Assembly (NCBI GenBank): GCA_903924855.1 | Contig: CAIYCW010000026.1 | Location: 62,001-126,000, forward strand | Length of the DNA: 64,000 nt | Direction: 5' to 3' | DNA from: an uncultured Rhodospirillales bacterium | GTDB taxonomy: Bacteria > Pseudomonadota > Alphaproteobacteria > Acetobacterales > Acetobacteraceae | Shown: one piece after another, positions 2,352-9,833 of the stretch | Numbering within the stretch: position 1 is the first letter of the stretch | How the letters are laid out: the number at the start of each line of letters is the position of its first letter | The notes under the pieces: model-generated | Databases searched by the model: none | Told to the model about the DNA's origin: nothing | Seen by the model: the letters and a program-made list of their open reading frames with translations, nothing else | Made by a program: the position numbers and the translations under genes

Positions 2352-4480
2352 ACGATCTGACGCAGACCATCGCAGCCCTGCGCTTCACCCCGCTGCTGCC
2401 ACAGGCGCTGCTGCTGGCGCTGGCCGGGCTCTGCCTGCTCGCCCTCGCCCTCGCCACATGGCGTCGCGCCCGCGGCGCTGTCTGGCGCGCCCTGCTGTTC
2501 ACCGCCATCCTGCTCTGGCTGGCAGGCCCGCGCCTGGTGGAGGAAAGCCGGCAGACACGGCCGGACATCGCGTTGCTGGTGGTGGACCAGACCGCCTCCA
2601 TGACCATCGGCGACCGCCCGGCCCTCGCCGCAGCCGCCCAGCGCACCATCGAGGAGCAGATCCGCCAGCACGCAAGCGAGCTGGACGGGCTGCAGCTCAG
2701 AACCGTGGTGGTGCCGGAGGCCGGCTCGGCCGGCACCAGGCTGTTCGCCGCCATCGACCGCGCTTTGGCGGACATCCCCACCTCCCGCCTCGCCGGCGTG
2801 ATGATGATCACCGACGGCCAGCTGCACGACATTCCAACCACGCTGCCGCCCAGCCTCGCCGGCGGTGTGCCGCTGCACGTGCTGCTCGCAGCACGCGGCG
2901 AGGAGACCGACCGCCGCCTGCGCGTGGTCTCCGCCCCCGGCTACGGCATTGTCGGCAAATCCGTCACGTTGCGCGTGGTGGTGGAGGATCTGGGTGTGGA
3001 GCCCGGCCTGCTGCAGGGGCCGGCCACCGCCGAGATCACCATCCGCAGGGATGGCGAGCCACCACGCCAGGTGCCGGTGCAGGTCGGGCGCGAGCAGGAG
3101 ATCGAGTTTCCGATCACCCGCGCCGGCCCTTCGGTGATCGATCTGTCGGTGGGCGAACGGCCCGGCGAGGTCAGCACACTCAACAACCGCGCGGTGGTGA
3201 CGGTGAACGGTGTGCGCGACCGGCTGCGGGTGCTGCTGGTCTCCGGCGAACCACATCCGGGCGAGCGCACCTGGCGGCGGCTGCTGAAGGCGGACCCCGC
3301 GGTGGATCTGGTGCATTTCACCATTCTGCGCCCACCGGAGAAGGACGACCTCACCCCGCTCAACGAGCTGGCGCTGATCGCCTTTCCGGTGCGCGAGCTG
3401 TTCCAGGTCAAGATCCGCGAGTTCGACCTGATCATCCTGGACCGCTTCACCAATCGCGGCCTGCTGCCGGTGCCCTATCTGCGCAACATCGCCGATTACG
3501 TGCGCGGCGGCGGCGCCCTGCTGGTCAGCGCCGGCCCGGAATACGCGGGCTCCGGCAGCCCGGCCCTCACGCCGCTCTCAGCCGTGCTGCCGGCGCGACC
3601 GGCGGCAGGCGGGGAGGCCGCGGTGATCAACCAGGAATTCCGCCCCGAGATCACCCCGCTCGGCACCCGCCACCCGATCACCGAGGCGCTGCCGGGCTGG
3701 CGGCCCAACGCCAGGCCGGTCTGGGGGCCGTGGTATCGCGCCGTGGCGGTGGCCCCCCCCAAGGGCGACGTGCTGATGAGCCTGCCGGACGGTCAGCCTC
3801 TGCTGATCACCGATCGGGTCGGCGAGGGGCGTGTGGCGCTGCTGCTGTCCGATCAGATCTGGCTGTGGTCACGCGGCCATGACGGCGGCGGCCCGCAGGC
3901 GGAGCTGCTGCGCCGTGTCGCGCACTGGCTGATGAAGGAGCCGGAGCTGGACGAGACCGCGCTGTCAGCCGAGATCTCCAGCGGTCAGCTGCACATACTG
4001 CGCCGCAGCACCGACGCCGCCGCCCCCGGGCCGGTCACGGTCACCGATCCCTCCGGCAAGACCAGCCAGATCACGCTGGAGGCCAGCGGCCCCGGCCAGT
4101 TCACCAAGACCCTGCCAGGGGCCGGGCCCGGCGTCTGGCAGGTGGGGGATGGTGAGCGCAGCGCCTATGCGGCGGCCGGTGCGGACAATCCGCTGGAATA
4201 CGAGGATCTGCGCGCCACCGCCGCGAAACTTGCCCCCATCGTCAAGGCCTCGGGCGGGACGGTGCATTTTCTGGCCGCCGGCGGTGCCACGCCAGGCGCG
4301 CCCGAGCTGCGCCGGATCGATGCCGGGCGCGATGCCGGCGGGTCGGCGTGGATCGGCCTGCCCAGGCGCGACGATCACATCGTCACCGGTGTTGCATCCA
4401 GCCCGCTGCTGCCGGCATGGTTGGCCTTGCCGTTGATCCTGGGTCTGGCACTCTTGGCATGGCGCCGTGAGGGAGGGTGA
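2348..4480 (+). CDS. Membrane protein with VWA-like and glutamine-amidotransferase-like regions
   Basis: This 710-residue protein has two N-terminal membrane segments (about residues 15-38 and 45-63). A VWA-like region follows with a degenerate metal-site motif DQTAS near residue 78, where DxSxS is expected. The middle (about 300-520) resembles the class-I amidotransferase-like fold seen in this family, with ADYVRGGGALLVSAGPEY and GEGRVALLLSDQ. A last membrane helix closes the C-terminus (LPAWLALPLILGLALLAWRR). The start is fixed by the ATGA overlap with the upstream DUF4159 gene, its usual partner. The exact role is not known; a joint function at the inner membrane is inferred. Confidence 0.75.
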   Translation: MNDLTQTIAALRFTPLLPQALLLALAGLCLLALALATWRRARGAVWRALLFTAILLWLAGPRLVEESRQTRPDIALLVVDQTASMTIGDRPALAAAAQRTIEEQIRQHASELDGLQLRTVVVPEAGSAGTRLFAAIDRALADIPTSRLAGVMMITDGQLHDIPTTLPPSLAGGVPLHVLLAARGEETDRRLRVVSAPGYGIVGKSVTLRVVVEDLGVEPGLLQGPATAEITIRRDGEPPRQVPVQVGREQEIEFPITRAGPSVIDLSVGERPGEVSTLNNRAVVTVNGVRDRLRVLLVSGEPHPGERTWRRLLKADPAVDLVHFTILRPPEKDDLTPLNELALIAFPVRELFQVKIREFDLIILDRFTNRGLLPVPYLRNIADYVRGGGALLVSAGPEYAGSGSPALTPLSAVLPARPAAGGEAAVINQEFRPEITPLGTRHPITEALPGWRPNARPVWGPWYRAVAVAPPKGDVLMSLPDGQPLLITDRVGEGRVALLLSDQIWLWSRGHDGGGPQAELLRRVAHWLMKEPELDETALSAEISSGQLHILRRSTDAAAPGPVTVTDPSGKTSQITLEASGPGQFTKTLPGAGPGVWQVGDGERSAYAAAGADNPLEYEDLRATAAKLAPIVKASGGTVHFLAAGGATPGAPELRRIDAGRDAGGSAWIGLPRRDDHIVTGVASSPLLPAWLALPLILGLALLAWRREGG

Positions 4481-5060: not shown

Positions 5061-5723
5061 TTGAGGTTGGGTGACATTGCCATGAACATGCGGTCGGTTC
5101 TGTTTGCTGCCTTGGGCGCAGCCTGCGTTCTCGGGTTTTCCATGGGCACCGCCCATGCCCAGACCAGCGCCACCGAGGAGCTCGGCCGCAAGCCGATCGT
5201 CAGCGGCACCGGGGAACGCAAGGCACCCCGCAACGAGCAGCCGCCGGCACTGCCCGGCACCCAGATCAACCGCGATCGCGTGATCCCGGCCGAACACGCC
5301 GCCAGCGACATGCCGCCCACCGAAGCCCTGTTCGACGCCGTCAACCGCGGCGATGTGGCGGCGGCCCGTGATGCCATCGCCCGCGGTGCTGATTTCAACG
5401 GCCGCAACGCGCTGGGCATGACACCGCTGGATGAATCGATCGATCTGGCCCGCAACGACATCACCTTCATGCTGCTCTCCCTGCGCGGCGCATTCGGGGA
5501 GCCGTCTTCCGCCCCGCAGGTGATGACGCGCCCGGCCGCCAAGGCCACGGCCAAGCCGGCACAGCCGGTGGCCGCACAGAAAGTGGCAACCGCACCAGTA
5601 CCCGCACCCAAACCGGAAATGCGCAGCGCGGCGCCAAGCCCGGCCATCACCGGCCAGATGGCAGGCCCGGCCTCCACCGGAACGCCGGATGCGAAAAGCG
5701 GCTTCCTCGGCTTCGGCGGCTAG
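5061..5723 (+). CDS. Exported ankyrin-repeat-like protein
   Basis: The 220-residue protein has a signal peptide (VLFAALGAACVLGFSMGTAHA, cleavage before QTS). A single ankyrin-like unit lies near residues 90-135 (EALFDAVNRGDVAAARDAIARGADFNGRN). An alanine/proline-rich tail ends in SGFLGFGG. A perfect AGGAGG at 5051-5056 is 4 nt before a TTG at 5061, which argues for that start; ATG codons at 5082 and 5088 would give a more ordinary signal peptide but have no Shine-Dalgarno sequence. It follows tspO by 18 nt. The stop codon runs directly into a long palindrome. Function not known; periplasmic protein interaction is the family-based guess. Confidence 0.65.
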   Translation: MRLGDIAMNMRSVLFAALGAACVLGFSMGTAHAQTSATEELGRKPIVSGTGERKAPRNEQPPALPGTQINRDRVIPAEHAASDMPPTEALFDAVNRGDVAAARDAIARGADFNGRNALGMTPLDESIDLARNDITFMLLSLRGAFGEPSSAPQVMTRPAAKATAKPAQPVAAQKVATAPVPAPKPEMRSAAPSPAITGQMAGPASTGTPDAKSGFLGFGG

Positions 5724-5766
5724 AACACGGTCCGACCGATTGGACTCAATCGGTCGGACAGTGTTC
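5723..5766. repeat. Long palindrome at gene end, copy A (terminator-like)
   Basis: GAACACgGTCCGACCGATTG is followed by 4 nt and then the reverse complement, broken by a single G/A mismatch. The left arm begins at the last base of the stop codon of the ankyrin-like gene. The core CCGACCGATTG recurs as copy B at 8899-8938. No T-run follows, so a Rho-independent terminator in the strict sense is not shown; a 3'-end hairpin or REP-like element fits better. Confidence 0.8.
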
Positions 5767-5983
5767 CAAGACCGCAACCAACCGCGCCGAACCCTTCATC
5801 CGACAAGCCGGAAGACCGGCACGCCTGCCGTGGCCGTGTGTTGCGCATGCGAGATGTGCGCGCGATCACGCTGGCTTTGCCGCTGCCACAATTGCTATAC
5901 CCTGGCTCACAGACGTCACCTAAGCTGTTGACTTGGCAGCAATGTGACAGTCCTTCGCGTTTCCTTGATCTGGGTTGCCGGAT

Positions 5984-6927: not shown

Positions 6928-8313
6928 TCAGAGATCGGCGATCGGCACCGGGCAGGCCAGTTCCAGGCTGCGGGCGGCGCGCAACACCAGCTCATCCCGA
7001 TACAGCCCCGCCGCAAGCTGCACGCTGCGCGGCAGACCCTGTTCGGTGAAGCCCATCGGCACCGAGATCGCCGGCTGGCGGGTGAGGTTCCAGGCAAAGG
7101 TCCACGGCGCCCAGCGCGTCCACAGCGCCTCCACCGGGTCGCCGATCGGCTGATCGACCCTGGGCGCAGGGTTGGGCACGCAGGGGCTGAGCACCAGATC
7201 ATAGCGCTGGTGCAGCCGCGCCATGCTGTGCGCCGCCTGCACCCGCATCGCCTCCGCCTCCATCATGTCGAGTGCCTTGATCCCGCCAGTGGCGGCCGCC
7301 ACCTGCAGCAGGCCAGGATCGAGCATGGCGCGATTGGCCTCGGACGTTGCCGCCACCTGGCGGCTGAGCGCCATCGCCCAGATCCGGCTGAAGATCTCGC
7401 GCACATCCGGCAGATCGATATCGACATCCTCCACCTCGGCACCCGCCTCCATCAGATGGCGCGCGGCCTGCTCGATGGCGGCGATACCCTCCCAATCCAC
7501 TGGCGCATCAAACCCCGGTCGGCGCAGCACCGCAATCCGCAGCCCGGCCACGCCCTGCTCGATGCCGTCCAACCAGTCTCGCGGATCATCCGGCAGGCAG
7601 AACGGATCGCGCAGGTCATGCCGGCCGATCACCCCCAGCATCAGCGCCGCATCCCGCACCGTGCGGGTCATCGGGCCCGCCACCGCCACATTGCCAAAGG
7701 CGCCCAACGGCCATTGCGGCACGCGGCCAAAGCTGGGCTTCAGCCCCACCACACCGCACCAGGCGGCCGGAATACGGATCGAACCGCCGGCATCGGTTCC
7801 CACATGCAACGGCCCAAACCCCGCGGCACAGGCCGCAGCCGCCCCCGAACTGGAGCCACCAGGCGTGTGATCGGTGTTCCACGGATTGCGGGTGATGCCG
7901 TGCAGCGGGCAATCCCCGGGTGATTTCCAGCCGAACTCGGTGGTGGTGGTCTTGCCGATGATCACCGCACCGGCGGCGCGCAGGCTGGTGACGATGGGCG
8001 CGTCATCTGCGGCAGGCGTGCTGGGCGTGGTGCGCGAGCCACGCCGGGTCGGCATACCCGCCACATCGATCAAATCCTTCACCGTGACCGGCACCCCGTC
8101 CAACGGCCCGATCGGCCGCCCGGCCCGCCAGCGCGCAGCGCTGTCGCCGGCCTGGACCAGCGCATCGCGGTGCATGGCGGCAAAGGCGTTGATGCCAGGA
8201 TTGAGCCGGGCCACCCTCGCCGTCACCGCCTGCAACATCTCCACCGGATCGATGATCCGACGGGCAAAAAGCTGAACCATCTCCTCGGCGGGCAGCAGGC
8301 TTGGGTCGGTCAT
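6928..8313 (-). CDS. Amidase (amidase signature family)
   Basis: Amidase-signature enzymes hydrolyse carboxamides with a Ser-cisSer-Lys triad. All three elements are visible in this 461-residue protein: Lys79 in DGVPVTVKDLID, the serines of PGGSSSGAAA (about 154-156), and Ser178 in GTDAGGSIRIPA. No GatB or GatC gene is nearby and no signal peptide is seen, so a stand-alone cytoplasmic amidase is more likely than GatA. The substrate cannot be inferred. ATG at 8313 fits the family N-terminus. The gene converges with the deacetylase and its upstream side faces the repeat block at 8.4-8.9 kb. Confidence 0.85.
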   Translation of the reverse strand: MTDPSLLPAEEMVQLFARRIIDPVEMLQAVTARVARLNPGINAFAAMHRDALVQAGDSAARWRAGRPIGPLDGVPVTVKDLIDVAGMPTRRGSRTTPSTPAADDAPIVTSLRAAGAVIIGKTTTTEFGWKSPGDCPLHGITRNPWNTDHTPGGSSSGAAAACAAGFGPLHVGTDAGGSIRIPAAWCGVVGLKPSFGRVPQWPLGAFGNVAVAGPMTRTVRDAALMLGVIGRHDLRDPFCLPDDPRDWLDGIEQGVAGLRIAVLRRPGFDAPVDWEGIAAIEQAARHLMEAGAEVEDVDIDLPDVREIFSRIWAMALSRQVAATSEANRAMLDPGLLQVAAATGGIKALDMMEAEAMRVQAAHSMARLHQRYDLVLSPCVPNPAPRVDQPIGDPVEALWTRWAPWTFAWNLTRQPAISVPMGFTEQGLPRSVQLAAGLYRDELVLRAARSLELACPVPIADL

Positions 8314-8420
8314 GTCTCGTCCGATGATGCAGATGGTTCGGTGATACCACCTGTTGCGCCGGACGACAGCCGGGGGCGTTGACAGAGATCAGGCGACAGC
8401 GTGCTTTTTTGAAAAATGTC

Positions 8421-8519
8421 GCGGCTGGCCCAGATCAGCATTCACGTGATCATTGATCCGATGTCAGCGGTCTTATCGGTTTCAAAGCTGCCTCAAGGGT
8501 TGACCGGCTTCGCCGGCGC
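8421..8519 (+). repeat. 99-bp intergenic repeat unit, copy 1
   Basis: The unit starts GCGGCTGGCCCAGAT and ends TTCGCCGGCGC. Its first 48 bases match the reverse complement of 8742-8789 at about 40 of 48 positions, and the remaining 51 bases align without gaps to the rest of copy 2. Its distal part folds with following DNA (TTTCAA...CTTGAAA around 8480-8544) into a hairpin of its own. Confidence 0.75.
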
Positions 8520-8580
8520 ACAGCGCCCCTGACGCAGCCTTGAAATCGAGCAGACCACGCAACCATTGGATAAATTCTTG

Positions 8581-8684
8581 GGGGCTGGCCTAGATAACGG
8601 CGCTCGGTGACCGGTTAACCATTGAGATTCAAGCATTTATCCGATGTTGGCATTCTCTGCTCGATTTTGCAGTTGCGTCAAGGG
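8581..8684 (+). repeat. Partial or diverged copy of the 99-bp repeat
   Basis: It begins GGGGCTGGCCTAGAT like the full unit. It then has an unrelated insert containing ATTGAGATTCAAG, and resumes with CATTTATCCGATGTTGGC ... CTCGATTTTGCA ... GCGTCAAGGG, which matches the inverted copy 2. Together with copy 2 it forms imperfect arms of about 50 bp around a GCGCCGGCGGAGCCGG centre. Confidence 0.65.
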
Positions 8685-8690
8685 CGCGAA

Positions 8691-8789
8691 GCGCCGGCGG
8701 AGCCGGTAAACCCTTGACGCAAATGCAAAATCGAGAAAACAGCTGACATCGGATCAATGCGTTGGTGAATGCTTATCTGAGCCAGCCCC
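8691..8789 (-). repeat. 99-bp intergenic repeat unit, copy 2 (inverted)
   Basis: Read on the minus strand it runs GGGGCTGGCTCAGAT ... ACCGGCTCCGCCGGCGC and is exactly the same length as copy 1. Its inner part TGCAAAATCGAG pairs perfectly with CTCGATTTTGCA at 8660-8671, and CCCTTGACGCAA pairs with TTGCGTCAAGGG, giving a very stable cruciform or RNA hairpin at 8660-8735. Confidence 0.75.
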
Positions 8790-8898
8790 AATTCTTGAAT
8801 CTCAATGATGTATGAGCCGTAAGAGCTTTCCATCCAGGCCAGCCCCAAAATTTCTTCACGGCCTCATGGGCGCTGGGCCCAGGCGAAGTCTCACCAGC

Positions 8899-8938
8899 GC
8901 ACGGTCCGACCGATTGGAATCAATCGGTCGGACCGTGC
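8899..8938. repeat. Long palindrome at gene end, copy B
   Basis: Two perfect 18-bp arms (GCACGGTCCGACCGATTG and its reverse complement) flank a 4-nt loop. It lies about 30 nt downstream of the motA stop codon on the minus strand. It shares its core with copy A at 5723-5766. It is placed like a transcript-end hairpin but lacks a T-run. Confidence 0.8.
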
Positions 8939-8969
8939 TCTAAGCGCTCCAGTCAGGTCGGACGTTCCT

Positions 8970-9833
8970 TCAGATCTGCAGCGATTGGGTCGCCTGCTCC
9001 AATTCCTGAAAACTCGGCATGAACTGGTTCGGCGCCATCTTGCGGCCGGATTCCACGCTGACGGCCGGCGGGTTGCCGTGCAGATGCGCCACCAGCACCG
9101 CGCGGATCACCTCGAAATATTTCGCCTCCTCCTCGATGACGGATTTCAGCCTGGCCGCCACCGGCCCCGCCATGCCGTAGGCGAGCAGAATGCCCAGAAA
9201 CGTGCCGACCAGCGCGCCCCCGATCATCGCCCCCAGCACCGCCGGCGGCTCGTTGATATGCGACATCGTCTTGATCACACCCAGCACGGCCGCCACGATC
9301 CCAAGGGCCGGCAGACCATCCGCCATCGTCTGGATGGCATGGGCGGCGTGCAGTTCCTCATGCAGGGTCTTCTTCAGCTCACGCCCCATCAGATCCTCGA
9401 TCTGGTTGGGATCATCGGCATTCATCCCCACCATCCGCAGATAGTCGCAGATCGTGTCACACACATGGTGGTTCGCGAGCAGTTTGGGAAATTTGGCGAA
9501 GGCCGGGCTGTCCGCCGGCTTTTCGATATGCGGCTCCAACGCCATCGTGCCCTTGGTGCTGGCAAGGCGCACGAAGTAATAAAGCAGGCTCAGCAGTTCC
9601 AGATAGTCACTGCCCTTATAGGCGGCACCGGACAGCACTTTCTTGAAGCCCCCCAGAGTGTGCTTCACATCATGCATGGAGTTGGACATCACGAACGTGC
9701 CCACCGCGGCCCCGCCGATGGTCAGCAGCTCGAACGGCAGCGCCTCGATCAACGGCGCCATACTGCCGCCCGACAGCAGATAGCTGCCGAACACACAGAC
9801 CAGCACGAACACAAGGCCGCCAATGGTGGTCAT
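8970..9833 (-). CDS. motA: Flagellar motor stator protein MotA
   Basis: MotA forms the proton channel of the flagellar stator with MotB. The 287-residue sequence has the expected length and four membrane segments. These include TTIGGLVFVLVCVFGSYLLSGG at the N-terminus, ALGIVAAVLGVIKTMSHI near 185-205 and ALVGTFLGILLAYGMAGPV near 210-230. A long cytoplasmic loop lies between segments 2 and 3. Its start overlaps the motB stop by 4 nt, so the two are translated as a unit in the order motB, motA, opposite to the enteric order. No other flagellar gene lies in the window. Confidence 0.92.
   Translation of the reverse strand: MTTIGGLVFVLVCVFGSYLLSGGSMAPLIEALPFELLTIGGAAVGTFVMSNSMHDVKHTLGGFKKVLSGAAYKGSDYLELLSLLYYFVRLASTKGTMALEPHIEKPADSPAFAKFPKLLANHHVCDTICDYLRMVGMNADDPNQIEDLMGRELKKTLHEELHAAHAIQTMADGLPALGIVAAVLGVIKTMSHINEPPAVLGAMIGGALVGTFLGILLAYGMAGPVAARLKSVIEEEAKYFEVIRAVLVAHLHGNPPAVSVESGRKMAPNQFMPSFQELEQATQSLQI

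Follow-up and report, generated by a model that had tools for sequence, protein, structure and literature searches.

Members of the IS1595 family usually produce 8-bp target duplications, and the IS1016 group is described as having no N-terminal zinc finger (PMC8101967). In the same source, the Merlin superfamily of eukaryotic IS1016 relatives is given terminal GG, duplications of 8 or 9 bp and a related transposase domain. A 165-bp MITE of Haloquadratum walsbyi, with seven copies and an 8-bp repeat, was put with ISHwa6 (PMC3852290). Palindromic, repeated sequences of the REP and REPIN type, linked to RAYT, are documented in PMC3733652. Homogenisation of palindrome arms and inversion of the spacer between them have been ascribed to template switching (PMC8604942; PMC8794818).

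The locus described here, within a stretch of 64,000 nucleotides (the window), holds a 209-bp MITE that has received a second copy of itself. It resembles the IS1595 family and IS1016 group in its nearly identical 17-bp ends, in the 8-bp duplication, found in three of the elements of that kind that were read, and in the AT-rich targets seen there. It differs from them in that it carries no transposase gene and has the ends alone in common, the IS of the congener G007 being 857 bp long. The relation to ISEc69, ISEc75 and ISAba36 is one of transposase annotation. The MITE of H. walsbyi (PMC3852290) is likewise small, present in several copies and flanked by an 8-bp duplication, but it comes from another domain of life and has another length. 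Merlin (PMC8101967) is alike in its terminal GG, the size of its duplications and a related transposase domain; it is eukaryotic, and the transposase family alone links it to the MITE. Compared with REPs and REPINs (PMC3733652), which are also palindromic and repeated, the present unit is longer and bears terminal inverted repeats and target duplications, and no RAYT was found.

The element was not described in the literature on IS1595, IS1016 and MITEs, on Acetobacteraceae and Alphaproteobacteria, or on template switching, as judged from titles and the starts of abstracts among the matches listed, with ISfinder outside the scope. It is a MITE of an ordinary kind and apparently a new family, tied to IS1595-type ends. 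As an example it is a clean one: the insertion is nested and its empty site is readable in sister copies.

Structure of the Nested Element

The first-pass annotation had noticed gap-free inverted copies of a 99-bp unit at 8421-8519 and 8691-8789, with about 40 of the first 48 bases identical. The alignment bears this out, with 79 of 99 bases identical, 40 of them within the first 48, while elsewhere in the window (8200-9000 excluded) no gap-free inverted match of this 99-mer exceeded 48/99. A repeat search extended the inverted arms to 8423-8580 and 8630-8787 (158 nt, 78%). The size of the unit did not hold: the true unit is a quasi-palindromic element of 209 bp, of which the 99-bp stretch makes up half. 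The segment 8421-8846 is one complete MITE inserted in another of opposite orientation, with the following features.

8413..8420, + strand: outer element target-site duplication, left copy, AAAATGTC; 7/8 identical to 8847-8854 AAAATTTC
8421..8580, - strand: outer MITE, part 1 (columns 209 to 50 of the element); starts GCGGCTGGCCCAGAT and aligns with nine other copies
8573..8580, + strand: inner element 8-bp target duplication, left copy, AATTCTTG, within the outer element; identical to 8790-8797
8581..8789, + strand: inner MITE, complete, 209 bp, orientation opposite to the outer; end pattern matched at both ends
8581..8597, + strand: inner MITE left terminal inverted repeat, GGGGCTGGCCTAGATAA; no mismatch to an end of the IS1595-type element G007:C29:5026-5882
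8660..8735, + strand: inner MITE core hairpin; stem arms 8660-8684 and 8711-8735, loop 26 nt
8773..8789, - strand: inner MITE right terminal inverted repeat, GGGGCTGGCTCAGATAA; from repeat search and end pattern
8790..8797, + strand: inner element 8-bp target duplication, right copy, AATTCTTG
8798..8846, - strand: outer MITE, part 2 (columns 49 to 1 of the element); terminates in CAGGCCAGCCCC
8847..8854, + strand: outer element target-site duplication, right copy, AAAATTTC

When the insert and one AATTCTTG are taken out of the outer element, exactly 209 bp remain in the alignment. The terminal inverted repeats occupy columns 1-17 and 193-209; the consensus starts with GGGGCTGGCCTRGATAA and ends in an imperfect complement of that start. 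Boundary motifs lie at 8421, 8581, 8774-8789 (- strand) and 8831-8846 (- strand), and the motif alone is in modest excess in the window (seven matches with at most three mismatches versus 3.1 expected, a number reached by four of 100 shuffles). The ORF list holds no ORF of at least 60 aa over 8421-8846. The 209-bp element is short, is bounded by terminal inverted repeats and has no transposase gene, as is characteristic of a MITE. The whole segment 8421-8846 folds with z = -14.7.

Target-Site Duplications and Empty Sites

Mapping of target-site duplications, proposed in the first-pass annotation, was successful for both elements. The inner copy is flanked on both sides by a perfect 8-bp AATTCTTG, the outer by 8-mers identical at seven positions. 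In all nine other aligned elements the nested target is uninterrupted and present in single copy. Copy C17c has it letter for letter and five have AATGCTTG; C42, C96 and C107 differ by further substitutions.

Comparison of left and right flanking 8-mers gave eight matches of eight for the inner copy and C43, seven for C121a and the outer copy, six for C17a and C33, and none for C96. With the duplication length of 8 chosen after the flanks were inspected, only the observed pairing, among the 5040 permutations of right flanks, reached the sum of 42; of 100,000 random shuffles, whose mean was 21.4, 21 did so. The test comprised these seven copies; C42, whose right end is lost, and C17b, C17c, C107 and C121b, whose ends are truncated or unclear, had been set aside before the count. 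The element family makes target-site duplications, and its dispersed copies are accompanied by sites at which the element is missing.

These duplications bear on the idea, raised in the first-pass annotation, of a REP-like element with an associated RAYT, that is, a REP or REPIN-type palindrome moved by a Y1 tyrosine transposase. The element is indeed palindromic, multi-copy and gene-less, and here it stands between two genes. No match to Y1_Tnp (PF01797) was obtained in its own genome, while five of 14 control genomes were positive, and both the terminal inverted repeats and the duplications of 8 bp are such as IS1595-family elements carry; moreover, its 209 bp contrast with the 20-40 bp of the REPs described in PMC3733652. 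A REP/RAYT origin was rejected on the negative search for a Y1 transposase, the terminal repeats and the target duplications, and we regard it as very improbable.

Copies in the Genome and in Relatives

The search of the genome with 8421-8846 returned 27 matches, which correspond to eleven places after merging both orientations. These hold twelve copies, whole or partial, on contigs C26 (the window, with two elements), C43, C17 (three), C121 (two), C42, C33, C96 and C107. Ten copies were aligned, the fragments C17b and C121b being left out, and six of the ten (C26in, C26out, C43, C17a, C121a and C33) have a full length of exactly 209 bp. Copy C96 has 195 bp, and C42 is damaged at, or has lost, its right end. 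In C17c (L028:2036-2151) and C107 (L029:2004-2151) the palindromic core is nearly all gone, as hairpin deletion would give.

The copies sit on different contigs with different flanks and between different ORFs, and a mechanically called ORF of at least 120 aa overlaps nine of the ten copy places looked at. The first-pass view of a non-autonomous, palindromic and mobile element that has inserted into itself is substantiated by the further copies, the 8-bp duplications and the uninterrupted target in sister copies. Identity is 97.1% between the inner copy and C43:20593-20801 and 72.7% between the inner and outer copies; from this difference, the nesting event probably took place long after the two lineages had separated.

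With the genome in 154 contigs, a local duplication or an assembly artefact might come to mind. This is scarcely credible, since copies occur on other contigs with different flanks, the inner and outer copies at 72.7% identity are too unlike for a mis-joined single copy, and an exact duplication is found at the insertion junctions.

The search of the genome and related genomes proposed in the first-pass annotation yielded ten further places in the genome, which sets aside its refuting case of a purely local duplication; in the relatives the ends were found and the body was not. In a set of 40 relatives that counts seven genus members and the own genome itself, the element occurs in the latter alone. 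Nearly the same ends recur in one congener, G007, and in other genera, and the match of G007 in this search is a single 36-bp stretch that represents an IS end. A search of 397 family genomes gave only two short, weak matches outside the own genome (E about 5e-4); as it scored two candidates per genome and gave four matches even in the own genome, it is less sensitive than the own-genome search. An exact 18-mer was found elsewhere in seven stretches from seven records, one each, including two alphaproteobacteria (Asticcacaulis and Methylobacterium), about the number expected by chance on our own estimate, in a record set which may omit records close to the genome of the window.

Between motA and the amidase gene lie 656 bp here; in G001, G004 and G006 the two are neighbours at a distance of about 100 bp, without the element. 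The exact empty site of the outer copy could not be placed, as the ~100-bp spacers of these three genomes align poorly with the window flanks. Most simply, the insertion at motA arose in the lineage of the own genome. The host probably belongs to the Acetobacteraceae, to judge by the best match of MotA, which is from a Komagataeibacter plasmid (57%).

IS1595-Type Ends and the Probable Transposase

An 857-bp element in the congener G007 (G007:C29:5026-5882) has the ends GGGGCTGGCCTAGATAA and GGGGCTGGCCTAGATAG and a 223-aa gene. Its ends differ from the 17 bp of the MITE by zero and one mismatches. A scan of the protein from its second residue on matched PF12762 (1.3e-31) and the IS1595 family transposase model NF033547 (1.5e-48) and gave no zinc-ribbon match. 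It probably belongs to the IS1016 group, judged by the missing zinc ribbon and not by a tree. At the level of sequence, the MITE and an IS with a predicted IS1595 transposase have their terminal repeats in common. The two are alike over about 17 bp per end only, too little to show descent of the MITE body from the IS. The G007 element ends at a contig end, which makes its own duplication unreadable.

Relatives of the G007 transposase at E <= 1e-20 were present in 15 of 200 family genomes. Among the 28 loci fetched, some of them cut by contig ends, a MITE-type end was found with at most two mismatches in nine and with at most three in 15; 13 have no end within three mismatches, and the reversed pattern was found in none of the 28. 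Genome G125 contains two partial copies, each having an end identical to that of the MITE. Among the matches listed (25 of 75), relatives on plasmids bear annotations as ISEc69, ISEc75 and ISAba36 family, IS1595-like.

Duplications of 8 bp were read directly in this IS type. In G163 the left and right 8-mers are identical for three elements, so that all good cases come from one genome. Other related IS with both ends and flanks readable are unlike or only partly alike, with matches at three of eight positions in L108 (G114), none in L113 (G078) and five in L120 (G065, with poor ends); L134 has a chance-like pair of ends and flanks matching at three of eight. The 8-bp duplications and the missing zinc finger both fit the IS1595 family and IS1016 group as described in PMC8101967.

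A search of the own genome for the partner transposase gave no match to the G007 type at E <= 1e-20; the assembly is 84.5% complete, a level at which absence is unproven. This bears on the present mobility of the element and not on its identity. The only PF12762 match of the genome is a 369-aa protein on C53 (L095:1453-2562) with a zinc-ribbon match. It was rejected as partner of the MITE, as it is of the zinc-ribbon type and no such ends (at most four mismatches) occur in the 3.4 kb around it. ORF 2791-3399 of the same locus is, by its look, presumably an IS3-type integrase.

It is very probable that a DDE transposase of the IS1016-group type, within the IS1595 family, moved the MITE. The data show the element limits, the ends, the target duplications, the multiple copies, the single-copy target in sister copies and, in a congener, an IS whose ends are nearly identical. 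A first copy would have inserted between motA and the amidase gene, and a second would later have inserted into the first at AATTCTTG. The putative chemistry is cut and paste at the 17-bp ends with duplication of 8-bp AT-rich targets. The enzyme may be absent from the genome or may have been missed through the incomplete assembly.

Core Hairpin and Possible Template Switching

The core arms 8660-8684 and 8711-8735 are 96% complementary, and 8640-8760 folds with z = -8.9. Two stem counts were made, each with seven copies. With the seven 209-column copies (C26out in, C96 out), five of 25 stem pairs were changed on both sides and 168 of 175 cells were still Watson-Crick, slid controls giving 0 or 1. 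With C96 in and C26out out, six pairs were changed on both sides, a value which none of 500 shuffles reached and for which slid controls gave 0-1. The paired changes are located in C33, in C26in, in C26in together with C43, and in C96, seemingly four separate lineages, as counted without a tree among few and related copies. Further pair types, one of five measures, did not exceed the shuffles (451 of 500 reached the value), and a test for overlap of variable stem columns was weak (P = 0.06). No pair was changed on both sides in the outer stem (53-67/166-180).

In copy C33 (L025:882-1090) the central loop is inverted relative to the ends: compared with C17a, 31 of 32 positions match as reverse complement and 11 of 32 in direct orientation.

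A very stable core stem with six both-side changes in seven copies would also be expected of a hairpin with secondary mobility that is selected as RNA or DNA, for instance one between motA and the amidase gene acting in mRNA stability or attenuation. Against this reading, contigs and neighbouring ORFs differ from copy to copy, the element is missing between adjacent motA and amidase genes in three genus members, C17c and C107 are nearly coreless, and the outer stem does not show both-side changes. Furthermore, no terminator-like site was found in the element, and template switching yields the same paired changes without selection, plus the loop inversion of C33. Such a selected hairpin is, in our judgement, unlikely. 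The element gave one promoter-like match, and the five Rfam matches, all to microRNA precursors, were far under gathering scores.

The hairpin core is probably held symmetrical by replication template switching and not by a host function. That the core is a record of such events, its palindrome maintained through mutation rather than selection, we put at an even chance. If it is true, covarying stems in such repeats are no evidence of RNA function. Paired arm changes together with the loop inversion indicate that covariation in dispersed palindromes can stem from template switching, and transposed copies of one hairpin might serve to measure it.

A Second Dispersed Palindrome

Another dispersed palindrome of about 50 bp is present in the window at 8895-8942 and 5721-5768. 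It has the form TAGAGCACG-GTCCGACCGATTG-GAAT-CAATCGGTCGGAC-(GGT)CGTGCTCTA, often followed by GAAATCATAATAT. Its pattern was matched 22 times in the own genome, 36 times in the congener G004 (there mostly with GATCGGAATCGATC) and twice in G001, but never in the five remaining genus members; the reversed pattern gave no match. The MITE copy on C43 (L021:1942-2202) lies directly behind a copy of this second palindrome, in its GAAATCAT tail, with the target duplication AATCATTA.
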